Positions 2,663 to 42,497 of a stretch of DNA of 64,000 bases are shown here, piece by piece. Under the pieces are notes generated by a model. That model was not told the origin of the DNA. It ran no database searches and saw only the letters and a list, made by a program, of their open reading frames with translations. This DNA is from Lachnospiraceae bacterium (GTDB taxonomy: Bacteria > Bacillota > Clostridia > Lachnospirales > Lachnospiraceae): assembly GCA_030524705.1 (NCBI GenBank), contig JAUNGD010000005.1:1-64000 (forward strand). The letters are read 5' to 3'. The first letter of the stretch is position 1, and every line of letters starts with the position of its first letter. Both the position numbers and the translations under genes were made by a program.

Positions 2663-3820
2663 TCAAGTACATTTGCCACTGGAGCGGCAATGATATTTTG
2701 CCATTGCCCTTTCATAGAGTTCTTGCAGAGAAACAGGCACATGTTTATGGTAGAGTTCCAGGAACTCCATTTTGTGGTTACATTTTGGACATTGAAGAGG
2801 ATCGTAACCAAAAGATAAAAGAAAGAGCTTCCGCCATGTATTAAAGCCAAGCAGGATTCTGTGCTTGGATTTAGGGACTGCCCTGCGGAGCTTCTCGTCA
2901 GATTTGCGGTGCCTTGCATAGAGTCCGTAATAACGTGTCATTTTGAAATATTTTTCAGGTATGTGCTGAATAAGCAGGGAAATAAAGTCCATTACAGGAA
3001 CTGTTTTTTTCACATAGGAGTTATTTTCGTGTTTATTGTAATGGAAGGTCACGTTTTCCCCATCATAGGAATCAATGCGGGAAGTGGCAACAACAGGGCG
3101 GCCGAGATAACGGCTGATGTATTTTACAACAGTGTCAGTGTCAAAGAGATTAGGCTTTGCATAGACATAAAAACCGTTTTTATCTTTTTTGTAAATAGCA
3201 GCTTTGGTTTTTTTGAAAGAAGGACCAATACGCTGTTCCAGCTCATTCAGAAGTGCAGTCTGGAAAGCTTTACGGAGATAGGTGTAATTAAAGTGCTTAA
3301 CAACTCTCCAGAAACCGTCATCGGAGAAACCGCCTTCGGTAAGAAGACAATGAATATGGGGATTCCATTCCAGAGGTCTGCCGAAGGTATGCAGGACACA
3401 GATGAAACCGGGGACAAAGTTTCTGCTTTTGTTCATTTCATGGAACAGTCTGAGAATAACGCTGCGAACAGCCTGAAAAAGGCAGTCGAGCAGGGAGCGT
3501 TGGTTCAGAAAGAAAGGGCGCAGATCTTCATCAATGGTAAAAACAAGGTGCCTGTGGGTACAGCCAATGAGTTTAAAGGACATTTTAGTAGAGCGGTCAA
3601 TGCAGTACTTGTTGCCACAGGTAGGGCAAAATTTGGAATGGCAGCGGAAAGGAACGAATTTCAGTTCGCCGCAGTGGGGACAGCCGTACATGGCACCGCC
3701 ATAAGAAGGAACACCACAGTTGATCATCTTCTCAATATTTTCCATAACAATGGGACGGGGATGAAGAATATATTCAATTTCTTCGTAATGTTCTTTAAAA
3801 ATCTTTTGCAGGATGTTCAT
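2663..3820 (-). CDS. IS91-family (HUH/Y2) transposase
   Basis: 385-residue rolling-circle transposase. It has an N-terminal zinc-ribbon (CPHC, then FCPTCG), the metal-binding HUH motif in WNPHIHCLLTEGG, and the paired catalytic tyrosines in KYISRYLGRP (Y-x3-Y), which together define the Y2 IS91 group. The C-terminal CPKCNHKME adds a second Cys pair. The frame is intact and full length, so the element may still be active. Such elements can mobilise neighbouring DNA by one-ended transposition, which bears on the origin of the adjacent island. Confidence 0.9.
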   Translation of the reverse strand: MNILQKIFKEHYEEIEYILHPRPIVMENIEKMINCGVPSYGGAMYGCPHCGELKFVPFRCHSKFCPTCGNKYCIDRSTKMSFKLIGCTHRHLVFTIDEDLRPFFLNQRSLLDCLFQAVRSVILRLFHEMNKSRNFVPGFICVLHTFGRPLEWNPHIHCLLTEGGFSDDGFWRVVKHFNYTYLRKAFQTALLNELEQRIGPSFKKTKAAIYKKDKNGFYVYAKPNLFDTDTVVKYISRYLGRPVVATSRIDSYDGENVTFHYNKHENNSYVKKTVPVMDFISLLIQHIPEKYFKMTRYYGLYARHRKSDEKLRRAVPKSKHRILLGFNTWRKLFLLSFGYDPLQCPKCNHKMEFLELYHKHVPVSLQELYERAMAKYHCRSSGKCT

Positions 3821-3907: not shown

Positions 3908-3936
3908 TTGTAATTTAAGAAAGAGTAAGTTATAAT
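3908..3936 (+). promoter_or_regulatory. Candidate sigma-A promoter of the ATPase-PIN-ligase operon
   Basis: TTGTAA, a 17-base spacer and a perfect TATAAT lie about 50 bases before the ATPase start, in a very AT-rich stretch. The -10 match is perfect; the -35 matches 4 of 6. Confidence 0.55.
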
Positions 3937-3985
3937 TTGTGTATTAAAGAAGCTACATATAAAAGTATAGTTTGTGAGGTGTGGC

Positions 3986-5392
3986 ATGATTGATCATTTG
4001 CATATAGAAAATTTTAAAGGATGGAAAGATACTGGTACGATTAAGCTATCACCTTTAACTGTTTTTTTTGGAGCAAACAGTTCAGGAAAGTCGAGTATAG
4101 GGCAATTTTTGATGCTATTAAAGCAGAGCGTAGAGTCATCTGACCGGAAATCTGTTTTTTTTACGGGAAATGAGGATACAGCTGTGGATCTCGGGTTGCC
4201 AACAGATTTAGTTTTTGATAGAGACTGGAAAAATGAAATTAGATTTTCGTATGACTGGACTCCAGAAAAGGAATTGATTTTAGGTGACGTTGTACGAGAA
4301 AAAAAATTTACTGTAAAACATATATCTTTTTTGGGAGATGTAAAAATTGTAGAAGAAGAAAGTCAAGAAGTTGAGGTACGGGAATTTAATTATTCTCTGA
4401 AGTTGACGAATGGAGAGCAGGTTGAAATAGGGTTAAGAAAGAAAAGTATGTCTAACACTACTAAGAGAGGATACGAATTGTTGTACAAGAATTATGATTT
4501 TGTACGATCCAGAGGGCGTGTATGGGATATTACATCGATTGTTAGATTTTATGGTTTTCCAGATGAAGCAGTAGCGTATTATCAAAATGCGAATTTTCTT
4601 CAGAATATTAATTTGGTACATGAGAAACTTTTCTCTACGATTTATTATCTTGGTCCACTGAGGAAACAAGCGAAAAGGCTTTATACATGGACGGGGCGCA
4701 GACCAGAAGGAGTTGGTAATTTAGGGGAAGATGCAATACAAGCAATTTTGGCAGCAGATAATGAAAATCGGATGATTAATTTAAAATATAAAAGTCCAAG
4801 AAAGCCATTTAAAGCGATTGTAGCAGAGATGTTAAAAAAAATGTCTTTAATTGAAGATTTCAAAATTGAAAAAATTTCTGAGAAACGCCAGGATTATGAT
4901 GTGAAAGTAAGAACAAAAGGGTCTAAAAATTGGGTAGATATTCCAGATGTTGGAATGGGTGTTTCTCAGGTTTTGCCGGTTATCGTAGAATTATTTTATG
5001 CCCCGCCAGGTTCCATCATTATTATGGAACAGCCGGAGTTGCATTTGCATCCAAGTGCACAGGCAGGTTTGGCAGATGTGATGATTGATGCAATCCATGC
5101 GAGAGAAAATTATGGGGCCAGAGGTATTCAATTAATAATTGAAACACACTCTGAATATTTTTTAAGGAGATTACAACGGCGAATGGCAGAAGGAACTTTA
5201 GCATGCGATGAGTTTTCTGCATATTTTGCAAATAATGATGAATTTCCAGCAAAATTGGAAGAATTACAGGTCGATATTTTTGGAAATATTGAAAATTGGC
5301 CCAAAAACTTTTTTGGAGATATAGCTGGGGATATTTATGCACAAACAGATGCTTCTTTGCAAAGAAGAATAAGTGAGGAGATTCATGAGTAA
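3986..5392 (+). CDS. AAA/OLD-like ATPase with DUF3696 C-terminus
   Basis: A 468-residue ABC/SMC-type ATPase. Residues 1-40 carry the family opening (IDHLHIENFKGWKDTG) and Walker A GANSSGKSS at about 29-37. Walker B is IIIMEQPELHLHP near 345-357, followed by the D-loop/His segment IETHSEYFLRRLQRR. The C-terminus (NWPKNFFGDI) is the DUF3696 signature. ATG at 3986 is chosen because GAGG at 3976-3979 precedes it by six bases; the in-frame GTG at 3974 lacks a site. Its stop overlaps the next start by 8 bases. Such ATPases typically act as sensors or switches for a partner nuclease; that role here is inferred. The gene is AT-rich compared with both flanks. Confidence 0.88.
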   Translation: MIDHLHIENFKGWKDTGTIKLSPLTVFFGANSSGKSSIGQFLMLLKQSVESSDRKSVFFTGNEDTAVDLGLPTDLVFDRDWKNEIRFSYDWTPEKELILGDVVREKKFTVKHISFLGDVKIVEEESQEVEVREFNYSLKLTNGEQVEIGLRKKSMSNTTKRGYELLYKNYDFVRSRGRVWDITSIVRFYGFPDEAVAYYQNANFLQNINLVHEKLFSTIYYLGPLRKQAKRLYTWTGRRPEGVGNLGEDAIQAILAADNENRMINLKYKSPRKPFKAIVAEMLKKMSLIEDFKIEKISEKRQDYDVKVRTKGSKNWVDIPDVGMGVSQVLPVIVELFYAPPGSIIIMEQPELHLHPSAQAGLADVMIDAIHARENYGARGIQLIIETHSEYFLRRLQRRMAEGTLACDEFSAYFANNDEFPAKLEELQVDIFGNIENWPKNFFGDIAGDIYAQTDASLQRRISEEIHE

Positions 5393-5906
5393 ATATATTA
5401 TAGATGCAAATGTTGTACTGTTAGCAGGAACACCCGTAAAAGATATTCCCAGAGAGCAATTGCTGTGTGCAAAAAAATGCGTTGATTTTATTCAAAATTT
5501 TATGCGGGATAAAAATGCAAGTCTTGTTTTGGATGATTCGGGGAGAATTTTAAAAGAGTACAGAGGGGCTCGAAAGGTAGGAAATTCTCCAAATCTTGCA
5601 ACAGTGTTTTGCAATTGGGCGCATCAAAATATGCCTAAATATGCAAAAGATTTTGTTCATTTGGATGAAATACAGGAAAATGTATTTCAGGAATATCCTG
5701 CAAATCAACAATTAAAAGAGTTCGATCCTCCAGACCGTAAATATATAGCAATAGCATATAAACATCCAGATTCTCCGCCAATTGTGGAAGCCAGTGATTC
5801 AAAATGGTGGGGGATAAAAGAAGCATTGAAAGAAAATAAAATAGAAGTAATATTTGTTGATGAGGAGTACATAAAAAATAAATATATGAAGAAAATAGGA
5901 ATATGA
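5385..5906 (+). CDS. PIN-like nuclease partner of the ATPase
   Basis: A 173-residue protein with PIN-domain features: an opening strand with Asp (SKYIIDANVVLL, D7), a central acidic pair and E58 (LDDSGRILKEYRG), D117 in DPPDRKYIAIAY and D138 in EASDSKWW. These give the four-acid layout of PIN ribonucleases, which cut RNA with Mg2+ or Mn2+. No substrate can be read from the sequence. The start at 5385 follows GAGGAG and overlaps the ATPase stop; its own stop overlaps the ligase start in ATGA, so the three genes are translationally coupled. PIN is inferred from motifs, not from a search. Confidence 0.72.
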   Translation: MSKYIIDANVVLLAGTPVKDIPREQLLCAKKCVDFIQNFMRDKNASLVLDDSGRILKEYRGARKVGNSPNLATVFCNWAHQNMPKYAKDFVHLDEIQENVFQEYPANQQLKEFDPPDRKYIAIAYKHPDSPPIVEASDSKWWGIKEALKENKIEVIFVDEEYIKNKYMKKIGI

Positions 5907-6583
5907 AAGAATATTTTAAATTTCCAACAACACGATATCTTACCTTTCCGAATAAAGGAATTGAGAGAAATGATAAATTGTATTCTGTAGATGAAATGAA
6001 AGAGCTTTTGAGGCATCAGATTATAGTAGAAGAAAAAGTAGACGGAGCTAATTTGGGAATTTCTTTTAATACAGATGGAGAACTTTGTTTGCAAAACCGC
6101 GGAAATTGGTTAGATGAGCCATATACAGGACAATGGAGAACTTTAGGTGGATGGTTAGCTCCAAAAGTAGATTTATTATTTGAAACACTTTTTGACAGAT
6201 ATATTTTGTTTGGGGAATGGTGCTATGCAGTTCATTCTGTGTATTATAGTATGTTGCCAGATTTATTTATTGCATTTGATGTTTTTGATAAGCTGGAGAA
6301 TAAATTTTTTTCTGTCAATGAAAGAAACAAGATGTTAAAAAATTTACCAATAGTTGTAGTTCATCAATGTGGAAAGGGCGTGTATAGTTTAAAAGATCTG
6401 GAATATTTTTTTGATAAGTCGTTTTACGGTGAAGATTTATGCGAAGGAATATATATACGTCAAGATGAAGGAAAATGGCTAAAACATAGGGCGAAAATGG
6501 TTCGAAAAGAGTTTCAACAGTGTATAAGCGAGCACTGGTCAAAAAAAGAATTGAAGTTAAACAAAGTAAAATGGTTGGTTTAA
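5903..6583 (+). CDS. RNA ligase family protein (nucleotidyltransferase)
   Basis: A 226-residue ATP-dependent RNA ligase-type protein. Motif I is EEKVDGAN with predicted adenylated Lys45; motif III is FGEWCYAV (G104-E105-W106); motif IV is EGIYIR (E181-G182); motif V is KHRAKMVR (K194, K198). The order and spacing fit the Rnl2/RNA_ligase family, which reseals nicks or breaks in RNA through a protein-AMP and RNA-adenylate intermediate. No extra domain is present. Coupling to a PIN nuclease gene through a 4-base overlap suggests cut-and-reseal chemistry, which is an inference. Confidence 0.83.
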   Translation: MKEYFKFPTTRYLTFPNKGIERNDKLYSVDEMKELLRHQIIVEEKVDGANLGISFNTDGELCLQNRGNWLDEPYTGQWRTLGGWLAPKVDLLFETLFDRYILFGEWCYAVHSVYYSMLPDLFIAFDVFDKLENKFFSVNERNKMLKNLPIVVVHQCGKGVYSLKDLEYFFDKSFYGEDLCEGIYIRQDEGKWLKHRAKMVRKEFQQCISEHWSKKELKLNKVKWLV

Positions 6584-6605
6584 ATTGATTGCTGAAGGTG
6601 ATATG

Positions 6606-6637
6606 GCTTCGAGATCTTAAAGCTCGAAGCTTTTTTT
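6606..6637 (+). terminator. Intrinsic terminator after the RNA ligase gene
   Basis: GCTTCGAG (6606-6613) pairs with CTCGAAGC (6623-6630), followed by seven T. It closes the three-gene operon but lies only 16 bases before the next ATG, leaving no room for a promoter between them. Confidence 0.88.
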
Positions 6638-6653
6638 GAAGTGGAGGAAAGCT

Positions 6654-8270
6654 ATGAGCATGAAAGTACTGATTGCAGATGATGAAGAAAAGGTTTGCCA
6701 GCTGATTGTTCACCTGGTTGACTGGGAAAGCCTTGATATGGAGGTCGTAGCAGTCACCCATAATGGGATTGAGGCACTGGAAGCTATTCGGAAGTGGAAG
6801 CCTGATATTGCCATTACGGATATTCGAATGCCGGGCTGCAATGGTCTGGAGTTGATACAGGAGTCAAAAACGATATCTCCGCAGATGGAATTTATCATCA
6901 TCAGCGGTTACCGCCATTTTGAATATGCACAGACCGCGATCCGCTTTGGCGTAAAGGACTACCTGCTGAAGCCGATCAAAAAAGAAGAGCTGAACAGTAC
7001 CCTGAAACGGATGCATGACTCCTATATGGAGCGGAACAAGCGGTTGTCTCAGGAGGAAATGTATCAGATTACCCTGCAGAATAATCTCGACCGGCTGCGG
7101 GCCGGCCTGTTTTCCGATGTACTTCTGCGAAAGAAAATAGATGTATCGGAGCTGGAAATTGTCCTGATGAACGAAAAGTATCATTATCAGTTCCACCCCG
7201 GCTGTTTTCAGGTCGTTGTGATCAAGATGGACGGCGTGGACACCCGGATCATGATGAACCAGGAATTTTTGCAGGAGAAGGTCCTGGAGGCCTTCAATAA
7301 TCGTATCCGGGAATATTGCTTTGATTCGGAAATCTGTCTGGAAAATTATACGTGTTATGCGGTGCTGAATTATCCGGAAGAAAACAGCAAAGCCGTGCGC
7401 CGGGTTCTGAAGCAGATTCTGGATCATTTGCTGCTGCAGAATGATATTTTTGAAAATCTTCGCGTTACGATTGGAAGCGGCAGCGTAGAAAACGGAATCG
7501 AGACGATCCACCGCTCAATGAAAACGGCTTCCCTGGCGGCAGAAGAACGCCTGCTGCAGGGGACCAATCGGGTTCTGGAATGTGAAAATCAGCCGCGGCA
7601 GTCCTTTGCGGAAAATGCGCTGTTTTATGATTTTAACCAGTGGATGGGTACGGCTGTGGAAAATCTGGATGAAAAGGCTATCAGCAATGCAATCTTCAGC
7701 CTGAAACAGGAAATGCTTAAATGCGATGCTGTGAGCGGACATGATATTTTGCAGATGGGAAAAGAGATTGTACAGATTTATCTGTTTACAGTGCGGAAAA
7801 ATAAATTTCCGCTGCACGTGGATGAAAGCTGGTTTGAGGACTATGTGCGTGCGATAGACAGTATGAGCAGTGTAGATGAAATCTTCCGCTATGCGGAAAA
7901 AACAGTCAGAGAATCCTTTCATGAACTGATACAGGTAAAAATGGCGGAGGACAACCGTCCCATCCGCATGGCAAAGCAGTATATCAAAGAAAATTTCGGC
8001 AGTTCGATCACACTGGAGATGGTGAGCAGCCAGGCGGGCTTCAATCCTGCATATTTCAGCACCATGTTTAAAAAAGAGACGGGAGCAACATTTTCCGAAT
8101 ATCTTTTGCAGGTCAGAATAGAAGCGGCGAAGGAAATGCTCCGTGACACGAATCTGAACATATCCGAGATCTGTGAACGGGTCGGATACAGTGACAGCAA
8201 ATATTTCACGAAAACCTTTACCCGGGAAGCAGGGCTGAAGCCAAATCAGTACCGCAAGCTGTATTCATAG
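6654..8270 (+). CDS. YesN-type response regulator (REC + AraC HTH)
   Basis: A 538-residue two-component regulator. The N-terminal receiver domain has the acidic pocket D9-D10, phospho-acceptor Asp56 (ITDIRMPG) and the conserved Lys in YLLKPIKK. After a long middle region the C-terminus has two AraC-type helix-turn-helices (SITLEMVSSQAGFNPAYFST and NISEICERVGYSDSKYFTK). Start 6654 has GGAGG 8 bases upstream. It forms an operon with the histidine kinase downstream and lies beside an RbsABC-type transporter, the usual target of YesN/YesM systems. The upstream terminator means its promoter must lie within or before the ligase gene, or transcription reads through. Confidence 0.92.
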   Translation: MSMKVLIADDEEKVCQLIVHLVDWESLDMEVVAVTHNGIEALEAIRKWKPDIAITDIRMPGCNGLELIQESKTISPQMEFIIISGYRHFEYAQTAIRFGVKDYLLKPIKKEELNSTLKRMHDSYMERNKRLSQEEMYQITLQNNLDRLRAGLFSDVLLRKKIDVSELEIVLMNEKYHYQFHPGCFQVVVIKMDGVDTRIMMNQEFLQEKVLEAFNNRIREYCFDSEICLENYTCYAVLNYPEENSKAVRRVLKQILDHLLLQNDIFENLRVTIGSGSVENGIETIHRSMKTASLAAEERLLQGTNRVLECENQPRQSFAENALFYDFNQWMGTAVENLDEKAISNAIFSLKQEMLKCDAVSGHDILQMGKEIVQIYLFTVRKNKFPLHVDESWFEDYVRAIDSMSSVDEIFRYAEKTVRESFHELIQVKMAEDNRPIRMAKQYIKENFGSSITLEMVSSQAGFNPAYFSTMFKKETGATFSEYLLQVRIEAAKEMLRDTNLNISEICERVGYSDSKYFTKTFTREAGLKPNQYRKLYS

Positions 8271-8307
8271 ACCGTATCGGGTGAATTTTATGGACAGGGG
8301 GTAGGCT

Positions 8308-9375
8308 ATGAAAAAGAAGATATACCTTGTGAAGCGGACGCAAATTGCCCTGACCGCGCTGTTCATACTGGCTGCGGTCATGGATCTCGTAGTGTGGCTG
8401 AGAGCCGGGGAGGACACTGTTTTGCATATGGCGGCCATCTGCAGTGCCGTCTTGCTGGCCGCCGCCGCGTATTATGTTTTATTTGAAATCCTGCGGCCGT
8501 ATATCCAGCTGAAAAAAATGTACCGGCTGCTGGCAGACGGGTATTTTATGGAGAAGCTGTACGAATACGGGATTCAGTTTGACGGTCAGGTGGAGATGGC
8601 TCAGAAGAAGCTTATGGAGAGAATGAGCGAGAGCGATATTCTGTCGCTGTCCAAGAAACAGGCGGAATACCTGGCTCTGCAGAATCAGATCAATCCCCAC
8701 TTTTTGTATAACATCCTGGAGGGGATTCGAAGCGAGGCGCTGTTGGCGGGGATGGACAGCGTGGCAGAGATGACGGAGGCGCTGGCCACCTTTTTCCGGT
8801 ATACGATTTCGAAGGTGGATCATCTCGTTACCCTAGAGGATGAGCTAGCAAATATCGAGAACTATTATGTGATCCAGCAGTACCGTTTCGGGGACAGGCT
8901 GAGCCTGTCCATCGAATATGAGGATGACGATGAAATGGAAGCGCTGAGCTGCCTGATCCCGAAGCTGACGCTGCAGCCGATCGTAGAAAATTCGATCTAT
9001 CACGGGCTGGAGGAGAAAATCGGAAAGGGACATCTGAGGATTCGGATTGCCCTTACCCGGCAGCGGCTTCTGATTACAATATCGGACGACGGCGTCGGTA
9101 TGGCGCCTGATATGCTGGATAAGCTGAACCGCAAGATGACAACGGCTTTGATGGAGGATCTGAAGACAAATTCGGAAAAACGGGGCGGGATCGCGGTCAT
9201 TAACGTCAACAACCGCATCAAGCTGCTGTTCGGAGAGGAATACGGACTTTACTTTTACAGTACGCCGGGGCTGGGAACGGACGTGGAGATCACGCTTCCG
9301 GTAAGGACCCGGGGACAGGAGAGGGAAGAGCATGAGAGAAGAAGTGCTTCGGATGGAGCACGTAACGACGGATGA
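8308..9375 (+). CDS. YesM-type sensor histidine kinase
   Basis: A 355-residue membrane sensor kinase of the His_kinase/HATPase class. Two N-terminal transmembrane segments (about residues 12-32 and 40-60) enclose a very short external loop, so there is no large sensor domain. The phospho-acceptor His131 lies in QNQINPHFLYNILEGIR; the N box is LQPIVENSIYHGLE and the G box SDDGVGM. With so little extracellular sequence it probably senses through a partner, possibly the adjacent binding protein or the degenerate ABC protein whose gene overlaps its last 44 bases. Confidence 0.92.
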   Translation: MKKKIYLVKRTQIALTALFILAAVMDLVVWLRAGEDTVLHMAAICSAVLLAAAAYYVLFEILRPYIQLKKMYRLLADGYFMEKLYEYGIQFDGQVEMAQKKLMERMSESDILSLSKKQAEYLALQNQINPHFLYNILEGIRSEALLAGMDSVAEMTEALATFFRYTISKVDHLVTLEDELANIENYYVIQQYRFGDRLSLSIEYEDDDEMEALSCLIPKLTLQPIVENSIYHGLEEKIGKGHLRIRIALTRQRLLITISDDGVGMAPDMLDKLNRKMTTALMEDLKTNSEKRGGIAVINVNNRIKLLFGEEYGLYFYSTPGLGTDVEITLPVRTRGQEREEHERRSASDGARNDG

Positions 9376-10831
9376 TTTTGAAATCACAAATCTCGACAAC
9401 ATGTCGATGCATATTTTTAAGGGCGAGATCGCCGGGCTTCTTCCGATTGACGAGCAGGGCAGGAAAAAGCTTCTGGAAGTGCTTTGCAGCAACGCTCCCC
9501 TCCAATACGGAAGGGTCTACCTGGAAAATGATCTGGTCAACAGCTATCTGAAAAGCGGACAGAGGGCGAACCGGGTGTATGTAATTTCCAGACAAAATCG
9601 GCTGATCCAGGATTTAAGCGTCTGTGACAATATCTTTGTGATGCGCCGGGGCTTCCGGCAGTATGTTGTGAACAAGAAGATACTTTACAGCGAGGCAAAA
9701 CGGATCCTGGATCAGCTTCAGATGAATATTGACCCGGGAGCTCCGGCGGATACCCTGACGGACTATGAACGGGTAGTTATAGAGCTTATAGAGGCTGTAG
9801 TGCAGCGCTCCAGCCTGATTGTTATTGACGAGATTGGTACGACGCTGGGAACCCAGGAGCTCATCAGGCTCCGGGAACTATTCAGATATTATGCAGGTCA
9901 GGGTTTTTCTTTTTTATATATCGGCAATCATCATGAAGAGGTGCTTCCCATGTGCGACCGTACCATGTTGATGAAGGGCGGCAGGATCGTGCATATTGTG
10001 CAGGGGGAGGATATTACCGATGAAGAAATTCTGAAGGTGGCAGGGTCTGCGCGTTTTCCAGAGCTGTATCTGCAAAGAGAAGGGGTTCTGCCGGCGGAGG
10101 AGGAAGAAAAAAAGAATGTGCAGGATCAGACGGCGGCTTTGGAATTCCGGGATATAACGACAGAATACCTGGAGCATCTGAGCTTTTCCGTGTGGCCAGG
10201 AGAATGTATCGTGCTTCTGGACCGGGGGATGTCCCCGGATGATGAGATATTAAATATCGTTTCCGGAGACAGTGCAAAATGGAAAGGGGAGATTATCTGC
10301 GGCGGAAAAAAGCTGAAGCCCGGCCAGCGGAAATTTCTTGATGAGTCCATTGCCATAATTGAAGAATATGCCCACAAATCAATGATTTTTCCGGATCTGT
10401 CTTTTATGGACAATCTGTGTATTTTAATGGATCGGAAGGTGAAGGGATTCTGGATGCAGGATAAGATCCGTAAAAGCATCAGAAAGGAATATGCGGACGT
10501 ATTCGGCGGTAACCTGGATGTGATGGACATGCGGAAGGTCTCCAAAATGGCAAAATATACGCTGGTGTATTACCGGTATTATATGCTCCGGCCCAGGGTG
10601 GTTTTTTGTGTTCAGCCCTTTGCCGGCGCGGATCTTTATCTGCGGGAGCATATCCTGGATCTGATTCAGGCACTGAAGAAGCGGGGAATTGCGGTGATCA
10701 TACTGACCACTGGCTCTACGGACGCTTCCTTTGCTGCGGACCGTCTGATCATGCTGGAGCATGGCAGGCTGGTTCGGGAATTCCAGAAGGAAGAATTTAA
10801 ATATTTGTGGGAGAATCTTTACAAGAACTAA
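9332..10831 (+). CDS. Degenerate tandem ABC protein, probably regulatory
   Basis: 499 residues with the two-cassette layout of RbsA/MglA sugar ATPases, but the catalytic motifs are lost. The first Walker A reads LLPIDEQGRKKLL with no GK[ST]; the first signature is LTDYERVVIELI in place of the usual LSVAQQQ-type motif; the first Walker B (LIVIDEIGTTLG) is partly kept. In the second half, Walker A is replaced by VLLDRGMSPDDE and Walker B by VVFCVQPFAGAD. It is therefore unlikely to hydrolyse ATP. The gene overlaps the kinase gene by 44 bases and is separated by a terminator from the intact transporter operon, which suggests a signalling role within the two-component system. Confidence 0.7.
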   Translation: MREEVLRMEHVTTDDFEITNLDNMSMHIFKGEIAGLLPIDEQGRKKLLEVLCSNAPLQYGRVYLENDLVNSYLKSGQRANRVYVISRQNRLIQDLSVCDNIFVMRRGFRQYVVNKKILYSEAKRILDQLQMNIDPGAPADTLTDYERVVIELIEAVVQRSSLIVIDEIGTTLGTQELIRLRELFRYYAGQGFSFLYIGNHHEEVLPMCDRTMLMKGGRIVHIVQGEDITDEEILKVAGSARFPELYLQREGVLPAEEEEKKNVQDQTAALEFRDITTEYLEHLSFSVWPGECIVLLDRGMSPDDEILNIVSGDSAKWKGEIICGGKKLKPGQRKFLDESIAIIEEYAHKSMIFPDLSFMDNLCILMDRKVKGFWMQDKIRKSIRKEYADVFGGNLDVMDMRKVSKMAKYTLVYYRYYMLRPRVVFCVQPFAGADLYLREHILDLIQALKKRGIAVIILTTGSTDASFAADRLIMLEHGRLVREFQKEEFKYLWENLYKN

Positions 10832-42263: not shown

Positions 42264-42279
42264 GTTGTTAGTGTGAATA

Positions 42280-42465
42280 TGCCGTATTGAGTGGATTCCT
42301 CCGGCTTGCCGGAGTGAATACTAAGAGGGAATCAGGTGAGAATCCTGAACGATCCGGTCACTGTGAGCAGGGAGCGAGATTTCATGGGCCATTACATATT
42401 GTAAAGTGTGAGAAGGCGGAATTGAACGATGATCTGTGAGCCAGGAAACCTGCTTAATATTAGAG
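42280..42465 (+). ncRNA. Cobalamin (B12) riboswitch
   Basis: The conserved core is readable: GGGAATCAGGTGAGAATCCT at 42327-42346, then GATCCGGTCACTGTGA, a variable region, and the B12 box AGCCAGGAAACCTGC at 42439-42453. Order and spacing match the adenosylcobalamin aptamer. Outer limits are approximate. Two terminator-like hairpins (42498, 42628) follow, so the likely mechanism is premature termination when cobalamin is bound. The controlled operon begins with malate dehydrogenase, an unusual target since it holds no B12 biosynthesis or transport gene. Confidence 0.93.
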
Positions 42466-42497
42466 ATGAGCTACCGTGAATAGCGATGAAATCTAAG

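Follow-up and report, generated by a model that had tools for sequence, protein, structure and literature searches.

The ATPase-PIN pairing discussed here is already catalogued in PADLOC as the defence candidate HEC-03, which is named in one paper, and a 2026 survey of BREX loci describes pairs of an OLD-ABC ATPase and a PIN endoRNase that serve as backup effectors (PMC12839542). In PARIS, the ATPase AriA gates the tRNase AriB (PMC12409363). HARP, a PIN-type RNase, has the ATP-dependent RNA ligase Rnl3 as a neighbour (PMC12153264), and Pnkp1-Rnl-Hen1 is described as a bacterial multi-protein complex that repairs RNA cut by ribotoxins (PMC4411300). We analysed a 64,000-nucleotide stretch of DNA from a Lachnospiraceae bacterium (assembly GCA_030524705.1, contig JAUNGD010000005.1, positions 1 to 64,000; hereafter the window) that carries three overlapping plus-strand genes for an OLD-type ATPase with a C-terminal DUF3696 (3986..5392), a PIN-like protein (5385..5906) and an RNA ligase (5903..6583). 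Open reading frame (ORF) calls and family scans agreed with a preliminary description of this DNA on these three identities. We read the operon, at a probability of about 0.5, as a mobile anti-phage module in which sensor-gated RNA cleavage is combined with a dedicated resealing enzyme.

The first two window proteins match the two HEC-03 models (ATPase to HEC-03B, 1.1e-120; PIN-like protein to HEC-03A, 1e-15) and are encoded by overlapping genes, but these models contain no ligase, which the window adds. The pairing of ATPase and PIN is shared with the BREX survey and two of our loci (L002, L094) lie inside BREX, whereas the trio also occurs outside BREX and the word "ligase" is absent from the main text of that survey (PMC12839542). 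The ATPase is related to that of PARIS (AriA model, 2.3e-31) and gating of a tRNase by an ATPase serves as our working analogy; however, the PARIS effector AriB is a TOPRIM protein, in the stead of which the window trio has a PIN-like protein, plus an extra ligase. Membership in PARIS was rejected, the second protein matching HEC-03A alone in PADLOC at E up to 1 and not AriB, as was membership in Septu or retron PtuAB, for which the HNH effector PtuB beside the ATPase is required and no HNH match was obtained among the three window proteins. HARP-Rnl3 likewise places a PIN-superfamily RNase beside an ATP-dependent RNA ligase, but no OLD ATPase is described in that account (PMC12153264), and membership was rejected because the PIN-like protein matched no Pfam family (E up to 1) and TIGR01209 scored 18.7 bits against a cut-off of 136.9. 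Pnkp1-Rnl-Hen1 shares a bacterial RNA ligase within a multi-protein system, and differs in having end healing and 2'-O-methylation and, as described, no nuclease of its own (PMC4411300). The ligase as a third member with an ATPase-PIN pair was not found in the full-text literature searched, which did not cover the RNA-repair survey of Burroughs and Aravind (2016). The preliminary description had proposed an undescribed system; this stands for the ligase-bearing form, which appears undescribed within that literature, and not for the ATPase-PIN core, already known as a candidate from HEC-03 and the BREX survey (PMC12839542).

Conservation of the Gene Arrangement

Genome contigs were searched with the ligase alone, blind to context, resulting in 19 loci. 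The same ATPase was upstream in 18 of these, with a PIN ORF between the two in all 18 (14 identified by tblastn and four by position and motif). The ATPase-PIN-ligase order spanned at least five phyla, the loci being labelled Lachnospiraceae, Desulfoferrobacter, Myxococcota, Acidobacteria, Planctomycetota, Rhodospirillales and Enterobacterales. Gene overlaps recurred with the order: among the 18 loci where the whole trio was called, PIN and ligase overlapped by four bases (-4) in 15, the rest being -1, -11 and one miscalled start, while the ATPase-PIN overlap across the 18 loci was -4 in nine and -8 in four.

A census was also performed with a PIN profile built from 18 PIN proteins, 17 of which adjoin a ligase, such that ligase-less systems may be under-sampled. 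The profile detected 1 of 391 genomes in the organism's own class, namely its own genome, 8 of 282 in the phylum sample of G579 (Nannocystis), 8 of 297 in that of G578 (Desulfoferrobacter) and 15 of 398 in that of G1159 (labelled Rhodospirillales); a single-protein PIN search of 194 relatives was positive in two, one again being its own genome. In the three phylum samples, all 32 PIN loci had the ATPase directly upstream. A ligase followed PIN in 22 of 31 (7/9 in the G579 sample, 4/7 readable in the G578 sample and 11/15 in the G1159 sample), or in 19 of 28 once the three centre genomes, which had been reached via ligase matches, are set aside. One locus (L082, in L089) stops 127 bases past PIN and was left out of the ligase count, two fragments of one broken PIN (L078 and L079) were counted once, and for L167 and L172-L174 about 1.5 kb of downstream sequence was covered. 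Some census loci coincide with those of the context-blind scan, and many loci come from metagenome bins. The fixed arrangement in 18/19 and 32/32 loci rules out a chance neighbourhood, and the trio is thus conserved together elsewhere, a point on which the preliminary description had staked its proposal.

A scan of viral contigs with the ligase alignment gave 25 loci, two of them with the ATPase-PIN pair. Four viral contigs (L038, L040, L041, L043) carried two different ligases of the superfamily a few kilobases apart. A DNA search of E. coli genomes with two satellite copies returned no near match to the trio, and a short, distant stretch of the ATPase in 3 of 5,426 genomes.

Identity of the Three Proteins

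The putative sensor or regulator is an OLD-type ABC ATPase with Pfam matches to AAA_15 (4.7e-29), AAA_21 (4e-23) and DUF3696 (3.8e-07). Its Walker A lysine, K35, was present in 44 of 47 aligned loci, with a gap at that position in the other three.

We take the second protein to be PIN-like on the basis of profile comparison and conserved residues. Single-sequence Pfam matches to PIN_3 were weak and limited to 5 of 18 members (best 0.017), and PDB searches with the sequence and with the profile returned unrelated matches only. A profile of 39 PIN sequences, however, aligned over its full length to a pooled set of 36 proteins taken from relatives (23 PIN_3 and 13 PIN; probability 87.8, E 3.3e-06), with D7, E58, D117 and D138 facing the acids of the PIN_3 and PIN proteins. 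Against the PIN_3 and PIN sets separately, this profile reached probabilities of 79 and 34, and an earlier 18-sequence profile 75 and 38%. As controls, PIN_3 against PIN gave 99 and the reversed 18-sequence profile gave less than 1 against the two sets apart, the reversed control not being part of the pooled run; comparison of the PIN profile with the ligase or ATPase alignment also gave less than 1. These results make a PIN fold probable. Seven residues (D7, N9, D50, E58, D114, D117, W141) were invariant in 47 of 47 aligned PIN proteins, and position 138 was D in 45 and E in two. D7, E58, D117 and D138, the four residues named in the preliminary description, correspond to the four conserved acidic active-site residues of the PIN nuclease superfamily, and the protein is probably an RNase.

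The third protein matched Pfam RNA_ligase (PF09414; 3.9e-26, 92.6 bits, cut-off 27) and PHROG RNA ligase families, with PDC-M01A as its only PADLOC match (0.0024). Nine residues (K45, D47, G48, N50, R66, E105, F125, E181, K198), including the previously named K45, were conserved in 39 of 39 trio ligases, a fortieth (L076) being excluded for its broken frame. At 226 amino acids, the protein consists of a nucleotidyltransferase domain alone, and its C-terminus lies about 28 residues past K198 in the alignment. T4 Rnl2 carries a C-terminal domain behind its nucleotidyltransferase domain; no such domain is present behind that of the window protein. The trio ligases do not form one clean clade (4 changes compared to a shuffled mean of 20.2, on a quick tree with long branches). 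Distant ligases were detected in 121 phage records.

Coevolution and Ligase Modularity

The ATPase and PIN coevolve, while the ligase is modular and sometimes absent. Across 24 complete loci, ATPase and PIN tree distances were highly correlated (Mantel r 0.90; 0 of 2000 permutations as high); the test excluded L004 and L019 (PIN frames miscalled or broken), L001 (partial ATPase) and L063. An ATPase-PIN tree was built for 47 loci, 36 with a ligase and 11 without, on which ligase presence changed at least seven times, with five of the changes forced by starred branches. In both main clades, then, the ligase has been lost, regained or swapped for another. Its presence was nonetheless more clustered than expected by chance, shuffles giving a mean of about 10 changes and counts as low in 8 and 3 of 500 for the two labels. 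The pairing was found in both main clades, and this repeated pairing favours a functional link. Five loci (L083, L084, L085, L173, L174) form a well-supported ligase-less clade and make natural controls for the contribution of the ligase. A longer stretch around one of them (L090, around L083) has a DUF3800 gene downstream. A congener (G034) also has the ATPase and PIN with no ligase.

Stand-Alone Ligases with an End-Healing Gene

Searching 194 relatives with the ligase gave matches in ten more genomes (frames of about 266-324 amino acids, 36-39% identity in the best segment), none of which had an ATPase or PIN within about 1.5 kb. Including a plasmid locus, an HD + AAA_33 (HD-Pnk-like) gene adjoined the ligase in 11 of 11 stand-alone loci (L021-L030 and plasmid L205), as determined by Pfam for ten of the eleven and by a model scan for all eleven, ten of which had built the model. 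With hits accepted up to E = 1, the same model detected this gene in none of the 41 trio-type loci, the whole window included; among these 41 are eight loci without a ligase, L013 and one repeat (L097, the contig of L003). The two kinds of ligase are related (about 30-39% identity) but their neighbourhoods are reversed, one having the end-healing gene and no ATPase-PIN pair and the other the pair and no end-healing gene. The window trio was therefore not assigned to this cassette, no HD + AAA_33 protein being found beside its ligase. The ligases of about 270 amino acids with their HD-Pnk-like gene appear to be a separate, self-contained RNA repair cassette, occurring in Clostridia and on a Pseudomonas plasmid.

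Metal-dependent PIN enzymes leave 5'-phosphate and 3'-OH ends. The contrast between 11/11 and 0/41 fits this chemistry, as a ligase acting on such cuts should need no healing enzyme, and we regard it as the best hint at mechanism that the sequences give.

Genomic Settings

The settings of the trio varied among loci and mostly point to defence. In two loci from IMG/VR (L034, L035), the trio is directly behind an integrase gene and ahead of a Psu gene, with a primase-helicase-like gene in addition in L035; the psu-int position in P4-like satellites has been described as a hotspot of anti-phage systems (PMC9122126). In L002, the trio is between PglX and BrxHI, with PglZ farther along, and in L094 it follows PglZ and BrxL. 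A type IIG/DrmMI-like methylase precedes the trio in L017, where the ORF after the ligase starts like the helicase of L013. In L064, which is pAsa9-like, the trio has an AbiEii-type gene nearby as well as one with a GTPase-associated annotation, the latter without a PADLOC match at 1e-10, and in L061 and L063 the annotation shows no obvious defence neighbour.

PIN was present on 12 of 72,556 plasmid records, nine of which also had the ligase (six Aeromonas, Tistrella, Azotobacter and Rhodococcus), one of the Aeromonas plasmids with a ligase match in two places. The remaining three PIN plasmids are from Acinetobacter soli. Six of the twelve regions were inspected. Conversely, 12 of 21 plasmid records with a ligase match had no PIN match. 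The recurrence of the trio in anti-phage locations (P4-like gap, BREX, methylase and helicase genes) supports the defence design proposed in the preliminary description, and the comparisons together point to a real, widespread and horizontally moving module that is very probably anti-phage.

Proposed Mechanism and Alternative Explanations

In the usual view, RNA-cutting immunity leaves the cell dead or dormant, and RNA repair is best known as a counter-weapon of phages or as a stress response. We infer the trigger, the RNA target and the role of the ligase in the trio as follows. By analogy with AriA and AriB, the OLD-type ATPase would hold the PIN nuclease inactive and sense an infection signal. 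Once triggered, PIN would cleave host RNA, with tRNA the likeliest target, leaving 5'-phosphate and 3'-OH ends if it follows metal-dependent PIN chemistry. The small ligase could join such ends directly with no kinase or phosphatase, so that the cuts would be resealed, limiting damage from leakage in the idle state and permitting recovery if the infection fails. We hypothesize, then, that tRNA cleavage is reversible, with the ligase acting as a modular insurance part and not as a core component. That the ligase reseals PIN cuts at all we would put at even odds. At somewhat less than even odds, the broader implication is that widespread immune modules encode both a weapon and its undoing, with a dedicated minimal ligase closing the 5'-phosphate/3'-OH cuts made by a PIN RNase under ATPase control, and giving either a reversible arrest or a cycle of cutting and ligation that rewrites the target RNA. 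The ligase-bearing form would be a new variant of the known ATPase-PIN core: in several phyla a defence operon has joined up with a ligase of its own, and the end-healing gene of the sister ligases is not found with it. This raises the question of whether bacteria can end RNA-level immunity by repairing the damage it has done.

Several observations weigh against resealing by a dedicated partner. Tree distances of the ligase were poorly correlated with those of the ATPase (r 0.18; 82 of 2000 permutations as high) and of PIN (r 0.04; 589 of 2000) in the same 24 loci, which rules out a strictly coevolving subunit and disfavours a tightly fitted three-part complex. Of the 31 readable census loci, 9 lack the ligase, with the catalytic residues of PIN kept, and at L013 (2170-2847) the ligase stands without the ATPase-PIN pair, flanked by an M78-peptidase gene and a DruE-like helicase. 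On the one Acinetobacter soli plasmid inspected (L060), an HNH_2 gene (9535-10293) replaces the ligase, and in L096 an HNH_2 gene (6633-7397, minus strand) directly follows the ligase, both being present. It is also uncertain whether a ligase without a C-terminal domain has full joining activity, and the end-chemistry argument leans on general PIN biochemistry. The lack of coevolution and the ligase-less loci would suit a plain two-gene abortive-infection system (HEC-03) to which the ligase is often added as an independent accessory that mends, for example, RNA cuts made by other toxins or by phage nucleases. We consider this unlikely, given the overlapping genes in a fixed order across many phyla, the 18 of 19 close ligase relatives that accompany the pair, and the absence beside the ligase of the end-healing gene that general repair would need.

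The bare 226-amino-acid nucleotidyltransferase domain might instead favour adenylation, and the ligase could then be a co-effector, with cutting, nucleotide loss and rejoining, or 5'-adenylation, leaving damaged RNA beyond phage repair. Multiple cuts, such as those made by RloC, are reported to circumvent phage RNA ligases (PMC3710099), which would be in keeping with such a role. The versions without a ligase are common, however, and the trio has no constant second nuclease or trimming enzyme, making a co-effector quite improbable. HARP-Rnl3 gives a precedent for a PIN-type RNase with an RNA ligase neighbour in housekeeping RNA processing (PMC12153264), and the ATPase could regulate such a pair outside of defence, but a housekeeping role fits poorly with the sparse distribution (1/391, 8/282, 8/297 and 15/398 genomes), the mobile and defence settings and an empty site in a congener, and we give it very little weight. 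Equally remote is a module that cuts and joins DNA. The PDB entries matched by the ligase profile include some labelled as DNA ligases and an HNH nuclease can occupy the ligase position, yet RNA ligases are also among these PDB matches, all of which have weak E-values, the Pfam and PHROG matches are to RNA ligases, and an end about 28 residues past K198 leaves no room for the OB domain of a DNA ligase.

Operon Layout and Insertion Site

The ATPase gene starts with ATG at 3986 and encodes 468 amino acids (the mechanical ORF start being GTG at 3974), and the PIN-like gene starts with ATG at 5385 and encodes 173 (mechanical start, GTG at 5373). From the ORF coordinates, the ATPase and PIN genes overlap by 8 bases and the PIN and ligase genes by 4, as the preliminary description had given. 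Its further claim of an own terminator was confirmed by RNA folding of the plus-strand stretch behind the ligase at 6605..6638, where a hairpin at 6605-6631 with a 9-pair stem and a loop of 9 is followed by a T run (-12.7 kcal/mol); a pattern scanner with a loop limit of 8 did not list it. An own promoter is plausible from a weak plus-strand match upstream of the operon (3908..3936; 10 of 12 positions), but promoter-like matches were not in excess, with 14 in the sequence compared to a shuffled mean of 15.3 (sd 3.4).

The trio is AT-rich, with a GC content of about 34.5% in 4001-6000 compared to 46-49% in 1-2000 and 46-51% in 7001-10000. The IS91-family transposase gene noted beforehand was found on the minus strand at 2663..3820 (NF033538, 3.5e-93; Y2_Tnp); it and the trio are flanked by rplQ and a response-regulator gene. 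In a congener (G033, locus L177), about 140 bp separate rplQ from the regulator and both IS91 and the trio are missing, an apparent empty site, and the stretch with IS91 and the trio therefore looks like an insertion. This congener is one of the four nearest regulator orthologues compared; the other three regulators have other neighbours. On this evidence the three-gene operon looks like a horizontally acquired one. An Rfam search gave no match at the operon, and detected a cobalamin riboswitch, unrelated to it, at 42272-42471 of the window (96.2 bits).

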